Assembly (NCBI GenBank): GCA_016871535.1 | Contig: VHCZ01000030.1 | Coordinates: 1-38,341 of the forward strand | DNA from: Verrucomicrobiota bacterium | GTDB taxonomy: Bacteria > Verrucomicrobiota > Verrucomicrobiia > Limisphaerales > SIBE01 | Reading direction: 5' to 3' | DNA: 38,341 bases | Shown: positions 12,731 through 22,215 of the stretch, piece after piece | Layout of the letters: every line of letters begins with the position of its first letter | Numbering within the stretch: position 1 is the stretch's first letter | Translations under genes and position numbers: made by a program | Notes under the pieces: model-generated | Seen by the model: only the letters and a program-made list of their open reading frames with translations | Told to the model about the DNA's origin: nothing | Database searches by the model: none

Positions 12731-14820
12731 ATGAACCACGGCAGTTCCAAGTTTGGCCTGGCGCGGCTGCTGCGCGCGGCCCTCGGGTTTTTCTGCGGCC
12801 TCGTTGCAAGTGCTGACTTGACCGTATCTGCAGGATCGTCCAGCGCGGACAGGACTTCGGAGCCACGCTCGCGCAACCAGTCGTGGGCGCTGCGCAAGCT
12901 GACCGACCCGCAGCCTCCAGCCGTGGTCCGAAGCGATTGGCCGATCAATGCCCTCGACCGCTTCGTTTTGCCCCGGCATGAAGCCGAAGGTTTGGCGCCA
13001 TCCGCGCGCGCCGATCGGAGGACCTTGCTCCGCCGCGTGACGTTTGACCTGATCGGCCTTCCGCCCACGCCGGAGGAACTTCAAGATTTTCTGAATGACG
13101 ATTCGCCGCGCGCTTACGAGAAAGTCGTGGACCGCCTTCTGGTTTCGCCTCATTTCGGCGAGCGCTGGGCGCGGCATTGGCTGGACGTGGTTCGCTTTGC
13201 GGAAAGCGATGGATTCGAGCGGAATACGCTGCGGCCCCACGCCTGGCCGTATCGGGATTGGGTCATTCAAGCGTTCAATGACGACTTGCCTTACCCGGAA
13301 TTCGTGCGGCTGCAATTGGCTGGCGACGTTCTCAAACCGGACGATCCCGGAGCCGTGGTTGCCACTGGTTACCTTGTCACTGGTCCATACGATCTATCGG
13401 GCACGACCGCCGGCACCGAGGCGATGCGGGCCGCAACGCGGCAGGATCAGTTGGAAGACCTCGTCGGCAGCCTCGGCCAAACGTTCCTCGGCCTGACGAT
13501 TGAATGCGCGCGCTGTCACGACCACAAGTACGATCCCGTGCCGCAAAGGGAGTATTACCAGATTGCGGCGGCCCTGGGCGGCGTCTGGCCGGGCGCGCGT
13601 GAATTCCTTTCCGAGAAGGCTCGGAATGAAGCGCAGCAAAAGCATCGAGAACTGGCCGCGGAAATCGAAAAAGTTCGCCCGCGTGTATCCGCAATCGAAG
13701 GGGTCCACCGAAGGCAAGTCGAAGCGGATCTTCGGGCCGAGGCTGTCAAATCCGCCGCAGCTTCCGAAGCCAAGGCCAGCCATGCTTTGGAAGACGCTGC
13801 GGTCAAACTTGTCGAGACTAAGAAGAAGGCGGAAGCCGCGAACGACTCCGACCAGGCCAAACTGGCGAAGGAACTGGAGAAGGCGAGGGAGAATCTGGCC
13901 AGCAAAGGAAGGGAATGGGAGAACACCAAGTCCGCGGTCGCAAAAGCTCGCGAATCCAAACCGCACGCGCCTTACGGCATGATCCTCGACCGGTTGCCGG
14001 AAGAACGGCGTTCGGAATATCGGCGGCTGGTTTTTGAGGTGTCCCACCTGGAGATGCGCCAGCGGTGGCTGGAGAGCGGATCGGTGAACGCGATTGTTCC
14101 GAAGCAGCCGCAGCTCTTTCGCATGCTGAATCGCGGTGACTTTCGAAGCCCTGGCGAAGTCGTCGGCCCGGGGGGCATTTCGGCGGTGGAAGGTCTGCCC
14201 GCGGATTTCGGCCTGCCGCCGGATGCGCCGGAAGCGCAACGCCGCGTCAGGCTGGCCGAGTGGATCACCGATCCGAAGAATCCGCTGCTGGCTCGCGTGG
14301 TGGTCAATCGCCTGTGGCATTATCATTTCGGCACCGGCCTGGTCGAAACTCCGAACGACCTGGGCGCGAACGGAGCGCGGCCTTCGCATCCGGAGTTGCT
14401 CGACTGGCTGGCGGGCGAGTTGATCCGCGAGCGTTGGAGCCTGAAAAAACTGCACCGCCTCGTCGTCACTTCGGCCTGCTACCAGCAAGCATCGCGGTGG
14501 AACGCGGAAGCCTCTCGCTGGACTGCGCCGACCCGTCGATCTCGATTCCGCGTCGGACGGTGACAACAACGCCGTTGCAGGCGCTGGCGATGTTAAACAA
14601 TGAATTCATGACGCGAGCGGCAGAGGCCTTCGCGCGGCGGCTCACCCGGGAGGCCGGTGACGATCCGATTGCTCAGATCAGAAAGTCGTACAAGCTGGCT
14701 TTGCTGCGTGACACGACCGAGCCGGAGCTTGCATCCGCCCGCCGTTTCATTGCCGAGCAGGGTCTGAGCGATTTTTGTCTCGTACTGTTCAACAGCAATG
14801 AGTTTGTGCATGTCGATTGA
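12731..14820 (+). pseudogene. DUF1549/DUF1553 protein with internal deletion and frameshift
   Basis: The gene starts with a signal-like segment (LARLLRAALGFFCGLVASA). A clear DUF1549 domain follows: LRRVTFDLIGLPPTPEELQD, then HFGERWARHWLDVVRFAESD and the CARCHDHKYDP motif. Next come a long charged coiled coil (about residues 285-425) and the DUF1553 start (WITDPKNPLLARVVVNRLWH). The frame reaches LVVTSACYQQASRWNA near 14505 and then jumps. The next family block (DCADPSISIPRRTVTTTPLQ, ending FNSNEFVHVD) lies in another frame and stops at 14818-14820. The DUF1553 segment that normally separates these two blocks, roughly 100 or more residues by recollection, is missing. The usual N-terminal c-type heme domain and a downstream DUF1501 partner are also absent. 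Such proteins are exported and probably act in polysaccharide breakdown. Confidence 0.85.
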
Positions 14821-14833
14821 GATTCCGTTTAAG

Positions 14834-14982
14834 TGGGGAGCGCACGCGCCTCGCGTGCAGTGTTCGGCGCCCTCGCCGAACACTGTGTGCCGTCGAAGAA
14901 ACCATCATTATGGTCACAGAGGACGTGACGATTTCGACCGGCGAGGCGCCGGTCGAGACACGCGGTGGCGCGTGTGGTCCCC
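14834..14982. repeat. Multi-hairpin element, copy 1
   Basis: The outer ends (TGGGGAGCGCACGCGCC at 14834 and GGCGCGTGTGGTCCCC ending 14982) are imperfectly complementary. Inside are three further hairpins. The first is agtgttcggcg paired perfectly with cgccgaacact around the loop CCCT (14859-14884). The second is a GTCAC/GTGAC stem near 14913-14929. The third is a perfect CGACCGGCG/CGCCGGTCG stem near 14935-14955. A homologous element is at 22078-22215. Copy 1 ends one base before the ATG at 14984, so it supplies whatever leader the PIN gene has. Confidence 0.8.
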
Positions 14983-14983
14983 G

Positions 14984-15381
14984 ATGAAACTGGACAGACT
15001 GCGGGATGCACAACAACGCGTCGCCGAACTGCTCTACGGACGTGAAACCGCTGCGCCTGGCCGTTGACACGAATGTGTTGCTCGATCTGGCGGGTGAAGT
15101 GGACGATGTGCTAGACGCCGTCGCCGTTATCTCGCTTCGGTTACCTGATACGGACAAACTCGTCCTCCCCAGCGTGCTTGAAGAATTGGCCTTCCTGGCG
15201 GACTCAGGCCGGACAAAGGAGGCGTGCCTCCTTTCTGCAAAGGCGATACGACAGATTCGCGACGAGCGCCGGTTCCGTCCATTGCTGGAGCTGCCATACT
15301 CCTCCGCACAGGTGGTAGAACTCGCCGACGAACTGCGGCGGTGCAACTTGCTGCCGGAAGAGGAAATGCACGATGCAGAGC
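14984..15381 (+). pseudogene. PIN-domain protein, frameshifted and 3'-truncated
   Basis: The ATG at 14984 opens MKLDRLRDAQQRVAELLYGR. That frame closes soon after, and the continuation is in the next frame: LRLAVDTNVLLDLAGEVDDV, then LVLPSVLEELAFLADSG and LADELRRCNLLPEEEMHDAE. The VDTN Asp and the E of LEELAFL are PIN-nuclease metal ligands. The family normally continues with another acidic strand-helix (ILLTSD-like), which is missing. Similarity stops at about 15381, where the sequence switches to the antisense of an Hsp70-like gene. It was probably a stand-alone VapC-like RNase, now inactive. One frameshift near 15045-15060 could in principle be a sequencing error, but the loss of the 3' end cannot. 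Confidence 0.7.
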
Positions 15382-15625
15382 AAACGTCCAGCGTGCCGCC
15401 GCCAAAGTCGATGACCAGGGCCTGATTTTTCTTCCGGTCGGCAACGTGAGGGTGGCGAATGCCGTAGCGGTAGTATTGAAACACGGCGAACGGTTCGGGC
15501 AGAAAGTCGATGTTCGCAAACTCGATGTTGGGGATGTCCGTGAACCGGCGGTTTTTCAGAATCTCTTCGAGGTTCCGTCGGTAATTGGTCAACCACTCCG
15601 GGGATGTATGTGTCGCCAGCGTTCT
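15382..15625 (-). pseudogene. Internal fragment of an Hsp70/actin-fold ATPase gene
   Basis: Read on the minus strand, this stretch gives TLATHTSPEWLTNYRRNLEE, then IPNIEFANIDFLPEPFAVFQ, YYRYG and ALVIDFGGGTLDVC. The last block is the phosphate-binding DxGGGTxD motif of Hsp70-like ATPases, preceded by a region consistent with the family. Both ends are cut. After DVC (codons at 15382-15390) the frame runs into the antisense of the PIN gene. Upstream it begins in the last bases of the PQQ dehydrogenase gene. No start or stop belongs to it. It is a rearrangement scar of about 240 bp. Confidence 0.7.
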
Positions 15626-22077: not shown

Positions 22078-22215
22078 TGGGGAGCGCACGCGCCCTCGCG
22101 TGCTGTGGTCCGCGCCCTCGCCGACCACACCACTCGCAAGAGCGGTCACCCTTTGGTGACTGAATTTCTACAACGGGGCGCCGGTCGATACACGCGAGGG
22201 CGCGTATGCTCCCCA
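22078..22215. repeat. Multi-hairpin element, copy 2
   Basis: 25-bp terminal inverted repeats (22078-22102 and 22191-22215) match at 23 of 25 positions; the left end starts TGGGGAGCGCACGCGCC. Inside are a hairpin (tgtggtccgcg/cgccgaccaca, loop CCCT, near 22104-22129) and a GTCACC-CTTT-GGTGAC hairpin near 22145-22160. A decayed fourth stem lies at CGCCGGTCG. It is homologous to 14834-14982. Confidence 0.85.

Follow-up and report, generated by a model that had tools for sequence, protein, structure and literature searches.

The two multi-hairpin copies at positions 14834-14982 and 22078-22215 of a 38,341-nt stretch of DNA from a Verrucomicrobiota bacterium (assembly GCA_016871535.1, contig VHCZ01000030.1, positions 1-38,341; this whole stretch is called the window here) are probably, with a likelihood that we would put at about 0.85 from sequence comparisons, non-autonomous mobile elements of a Verrucomicrobia-wide family. 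They resemble the REPINs built from repetitive extragenic palindromic (REP) sequences, and are likely to have been moved by a REP-associated tyrosine transposase (RAYT) that is embedded in housekeeping enzymes. That the elements are REPIN-like and non-autonomous follows from the finding that the same half-units flank the RAYT. The original prediction, made from the letters of the window, had singled out an inner hairpin in which two differences between the copies keep pairing, an A-T to T-A and a T-A to G-C change (agtgttcggcg/cgccgaacact versus tgtggtccgcg/cgccgaccaca), while a third leaves a mismatch. The coordinates, the sequences and both paired changes proved exact, and the mismatch is present in copy 2. 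The outer inverted ends and internal hairpins said to be shared by the copies stood only in part: local hairpins 1 and 4 pair cleanly, but long-range pairing of the outer ends is imperfect and copy 2 has a degenerate third hairpin.

Alignment of 41 copies from the window's own genome defined the element as GGGGAGC followed by hairpin 1 (GCACGCG-CC(C)T-CGCGTGC) and hairpin 2 (a variable stem around GGCG-CC(C)T-CGCC), a variable spacer and then both hairpins inverted, with further inverted flanks in a subset of these copies. The 79 complete elements in loci retrieved by a pattern scan measure 110-209 nt. GGGGAGC is nearly invariant across half-units and is followed by G or A, while the outer pair of hairpin 1 is G-C in 193, A-T in 52 and something else in six of 251 half-units. 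Within own-genome copies this pair is G-C in the left half and usually A-T in its right-half counterpart, which makes pairing there better within local hairpins than between the long-range arms. In the window, copy 1 has perfect 12-bp arms (14858-14869 and 14874-14885) and copy 2 a 40-nt inverted pair at 78%; against shuffled sequence, their folds score z = -8.3 and -9.3, respectively, on the plus strand, and both copies reach -7.5 to -9.3 over the two strands.

Whether two paired changes in two copies mean anything was to be decided on many copies, and there the signal is strong. A MAFFT alignment of 140 half-units misregistered the 3- and 4-nt loops, and covariation was therefore counted after registration by core sequence alone, which was possible for 279 of 291 half-units, and on ungapped units. 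Pairs 5-9 from the loop of hairpin 2 are Watson-Crick in 89-91% of cases versus 29-56% when the 3' letters are shuffled among copies, and all five positions are complementary in 176 of 278 half-units, which carry 99 distinct 5-nt arms. Among 53 ungapped half-units, picked by sequence with pairing ignored, 95.8% of paired cells pair (80.8% shuffled) and 111 double changes are seen (28 shuffled), whereas sliding the structure by 1-3 columns leaves 21-50% paired. Two of the five measures are less clear (pairs with a double change and pair types, reached by 20 and 142 of 500 shuffles), and shuffle scores are inflated by kinship; nevertheless, the many distinct arms require many separate changes. 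It is thus supported that selection acts on structure rather than on sequence, as the original prediction had proposed, and the outcome that it had named as fatal, copies with neither covariation nor a signature of mobility, is not what the collection gave.

That collection, suggested at the outset as a model search, grew far beyond chance expectation. When copy 1 was used as a blastn query and the best 40 of 185 first-look candidates in its own genome were scored, the other copies were 75-82% identical to it over about 150 nt. A covariance model of one half-unit (R1; 50 positions, 17 pairs) found at least 150 half-units in this genome, every one at E < 1e-5. Outside it, the element was matched in 21 of 40 relatives by blastn, in 37 of 188 genomes of the class by R1, and in at least 120 stretches in a pattern scan of named genomes. 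Nearly all titles listed for that scan either carry the name Verrucomicrobia outright or belong to genera that we take to be Verrucomicrobia; among the matches listed, one is titled Proteobacteria (L078) and several PVC group. In a lichen-derived genome (L095), where one element directly adjoins another half-unit (2812-2960), contigs often end at or near elements, which suggests very similar recent copies.

What ties these repeats to an enzyme is that, at three loci (L117, L123 and L155), two outer ends, separated by 559-584 nt, enclose an open frame that scores as Pfam Y1_Tnp, the HUH/Y1 domain. The NCBIfam model for REP-associated tyrosine transposases, NF047646 (cut-off 80), scores the first such insert of the window's own genome at 84.1 bits; three of five subfamily members exceed the cut-off (84.1, 82.4 and 82.7) and two fall just below it (78.8 and 79.0). 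A profile of 18 RAYTs matches the TnpArep structure 4er8 in the PDB (2.1e-6). Among these 18 the HUH motif retains its first histidine in 17 and its second in all, and the catalytic tyrosine and the NP that follows it are found in all 18; AlphaFold2 models of three inserts (pLDDT 38) were not used. Within 150 nt of 35 RAYTs, both half-units are found inverted in 22, one half-unit or another arrangement in seven and none in six. The armless six are confined to two clades, starred in the tree (the second copy of L218, L233 and L292; L231, L295 and L298), so that the arm family follows the RAYT clade. Around one RAYT in RecG (L224, 3637-4207), the two arms are reversed in orientation relative to the others. 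Free Y1_Tnp genes were considered as partners and rejected: 20 loci (L048-L067) have no hairpin-1 arm within five edits, and the link is thus to the embedded subfamily, not to the presence of any Y1 gene. Weak relatives are encoded at six loci on viral contigs (28-37%) and in six plasmid records (27-35%), and none were found in phages. Among the hallmarks of a REPIN, two inverted REP units with a spacer, high copy number in one genome and units flanking a RAYT gene (own-genome insert 1 included) are present.

The RAYTs themselves are found in an unusual place. At L117, the transposase lies inside a single 1133-aa MetH frame, with the pterin, B12 and activation domains around it, and this frame runs through both REP arms without a break. 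(A second complete element, at 11-173 of the same locus, overlaps the point at which the metH frame is predicted to start, and the predicted N-terminus may hence be element-coded.) A search of the class with the L117 protein gave 17 strong matches (E < 1e-40), spread over 15 of 188 genomes and all lying in frames 730-1398 aa long, and a profile search of 384 genomes, with at most nine candidates scored per genome, gave 46 matches (E up to 1e-25) in 36 genomes; all 46 lie in stop-free frames of 698-1513 aa and none stands alone. Hosts were assigned for 35 domains (32 of the 46 and three named loci): alanyl-tRNA synthetase (AlaRS) 15, RecG 10, threonyl-tRNA synthetase (ThrRS) five, MetH five and no other. 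Insertions in AlaRS use two sites only, at about residues 305 (n = 4) and 428 (n = 11) of the uninterrupted enzyme, and host sequence is conserved on both sides of them in the alignment (its row L247 is in the wrong frame and is to be disregarded). Pfam scans of whole frames, where made, place host domains on either side of the RAYT and reveal no splicing domain; judged from these frames, the insert appears to stay in the host protein. The embedded RAYTs are under purifying selection, pN/pS (the ratio of non-synonymous to synonymous differences) being 0.12-0.22 in all seven pairs compared, where synonymous sites are close to saturation. On a tree of the 35 RAYTs, host or site must have changed 11 times (the possible minimum is 5, and shuffling gives a mean of 20.3), which means that the lineage switched host gene repeatedly, within a short list. 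Other Y1 subfamilies were also seen in frame within long frames, surrounded by different repeat-coded peptides (L237, 1976-5095, on contig C42 of the window's own genome; L235, 2323-5766; L236, 2794-7485; L234, 2133-6674); among their hosts, Pfam identifies a DinG-like helicase (own genome) and valyl-tRNA synthetase, and the other two, as judged from the sequence, resemble DnaE and a restriction protein.

The genome of the window provides a striking case. The sole alaS detected in it (contig C141) consists of three AlaRS pieces in one 1398-aa frame, which contains two RAYT domains, one at each insertion site, and two complete elements. Of 23 genomes surveyed for alaS, 11 (four of them from the same family) have a single uninterrupted match, the frames being 911-985 aa long. 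In nine others the match is split into two or three pieces, the frames of G039 and G129 being of ordinary length; contig ends truncate the match in two more, and one genome yielded no alaS.

Co-occurrence across genomes supports the partnership of element and RAYT: at least three half-units occur in 10 of 15 genomes with a strong RAYT versus 13 of 173 without one (Fisher p 2e-7), a statistic that ignores kinship. Several findings weigh against it. The 13 genomes just counted are themselves exceptions. G025 has many element matches and no Y1_Tnp match in a genome 89% complete, G125 has a RAYT and no element at E 1e-4, and the HUH motif is broken at L155. Most genomes are draft assemblies (one of the 36 RAYT-bearing genomes, G270, is a single contig). 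Finally, the GTAG tetranucleotide typical of REPINs is not found 5' of the hairpin, where GGGGAGC stands instead, although an excerpt of one study gives GTAG as the most frequent rather than the universal RAYT/REP tetranucleotide (PMC8266576).

The RAYT would be translated either within the host polypeptide or from a start codon inside the frame, would recognise the half-unit folded as single-stranded DNA, and would cut and join beside GGGGAGC, so that the element moves without duplicating its target. By analogy with RAYTs that bind and cut single-stranded REPs, with a role for the 5' tetranucleotide and the stem-loop (excerpt of PMC8266576), we infer that the enzyme acts on folded half-units; that the fused polypeptide itself is active would be a further step, an internal start being possible. 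It is proposed that the stem covaries because the enzyme reads the shape of the hairpin, its loop and the guide motif and not the sequence of the stem, and that insertions in genes can survive as linkers because REP arms are open in several frames. Inteins occupy conserved essential enzymes in frame, and the present inserts are sited alike, although no splicing domain accompanies them. An intein-like life, in which the RAYT is a permanent translated domain of AlaRS, ThrRS, RecG or MetH, re-enters the same loops in frame and, as a fused enzyme, mobilises the REPINs of the genome, is in our view an even bet; on this reading the transposase would be hard to lose because deletions must keep the frame of an essential host.

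The structure is thus most plausibly a set of DNA hairpins that serve an HUH/Y1 transposase, and other explanations have to be measured against the same data. Strong hairpin covariation, and the position of both window copies between genes, is also what a structured non-coding or cis-regulatory RNA selected for its fold would display; we consider this improbable because Rfam 15 gave no relevant match to the element (whether at the gathering score or at E as high as 10), because inverted symmetry makes both strands fold alike, and because the elements are numerous, are paired with a transposase and occur inside coding frames, as fits mobile DNA. A miniature inverted-repeat transposable element (MITE) of a DDE transposon with terminal inverted repeats (TIRs) would have inverted ends, a length of 110-209 bp and many copies, but the gene flanked by half-units is Y1/HUH and not DDE. 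The target-site duplication that had been suggested as a check did not appear clearly among 117 elements: direct repeats of k = 3-5 are within the shuffled range and those of k = 6 occur in 4 of 117 (0.8 expected), while the outermost 1-3 bases are found inverted at a rate above chance. This absence is what HUH transposition would give, and it makes the MITE, already weakened, the least credible of the alternatives.

More serious, while still unlikely, is that an ancient REPIN family is now immobile, its embedded RAYTs domesticated for the host enzyme and its elements passive or regulatory repeats. The identity of just 75-82% between copy 1 and the other own-genome copies, and purifying selection on the RAYTs, would agree with this. 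However, the 11 host/site changes and the uninterrupted alaS of same-family relatives point to past movement, and the contig ends in the lichen-derived genome suggest recent copies. REPIN-like elements mobilised by the embedded RAYT hence remain the preferred explanation.

The features of both copies are listed in the table below; both are intergenic. Upstream of copy 1, a frame that encodes the C-terminal part of a DUF1553 domain ends at 14820. Copy 1 does end, as had been remarked, one base before an ATG (14984), but this ATG opens merely 27 codons and the remark is therefore without weight. A small open reading frame that follows (15006-15425) has a PIN-domain score of 15.1 bits, below the cut-off of 23.6. 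Copy 2 precedes a GSDH/cytochrome c gene lying on the other strand.

Table. Coordinates in the window of the two putative REPIN-like elements and their parts.
Feature	Position	Strand	Basis
Copy 1, complete REPIN-like element (two inverted half-units and spacer)	14834..14982	+	Alignment, own-genome copies, fold
Copy 1, left half-unit (GGGGAGC, hairpin 1, hairpin 2)	14835..14883	+	Model R1, 70.1 bits, E 1.6e-10
Copy 1, hairpin 1 (GCACGCG / CGCGTGC)	14842..14858	+	Read from sequence
Copy 1, hairpin 2, stem with compensating changes	14858..14885	+	Covariation counts
Copy 1, hairpin 3, inverted counterpart of hairpin 2	14934..14956	+	Sequence reading, alignment
Copy 1, hairpin 4, inverted counterpart of hairpin 1	14958..14975	+	Sequence reading, alignment
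Copy 2, complete element, hairpin 3 degenerate	22078..22215	+	Fold, alignment
Copy 2, left half-unit	22079..22128	+	Model R1, 75.1 bits, E 1.5e-11
Copy 2, right half-unit, inverted	22161..22214	-	Half-unit alignment

Parts of this picture are already known, since REPINs with compensatory changes (PMC3116915), and TIR-flanked RAYTs and in-frame REPs (PMC3733652), have been described; the comparisons made here are with excerpts of these papers. Like the REPINs and RAYTs of Pseudomonas (Bertels and Rainey 2011, PMC3116915), the present system combines two inverted REPs and a spacer, high copy number and a matching RAYT, with a hairpin or 'clover' fold and compensatory changes. Unlike them, its half-units have two hairpins each and GGGGAGC in place of GTAG, and its RAYT is an in-frame insert in housekeeping enzymes and not a free gene. 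TIRtrons and their TIRYTs (Di Nocera 2013, PMC3733652) are alike in that a RAYT-like transposase lies between inverted repeats which also form genomic dimers, some TIRs even starting with GGGG. However, the motif GGGGWSAS, shared by some TIRs only, is not matched by GGGGAGC(G/A), which departs at the seventh base, and the excerpted text of that paper describes no in-frame transposase. In-frame palindromes in housekeeping or repair genes are also seen in the intragenic REPs of Opitutus terrae (PMC3733652) and the Rickettsia palindromic elements (PMC10969869), which encode short peptides, whereas the present inserts also carry whole transposase domains. A survey, by an excerpt of its text, discarded a few unexpectedly long Y1 proteins as fusions or annotation errors (PMC6006769). 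No report of RAYTs in frame inside aminoacyl-tRNA synthetases, RecG or MetH was found in searches of an open-licence library.

RAYTs persist in bacteria though they rarely copy themselves, and the reason for their persistence is an open question. A RAYT lineage found here only in frame in essential or conserved enzymes offers, for one group, a testable answer: it may persist because its loss risks the host gene. Natural bifunctional proteins, for instance an AlaRS-HUH nuclease, are a further prediction, and the lineage shows that annotating such enzymes as merely long, or dropping them as fusions, can hide a transposase.
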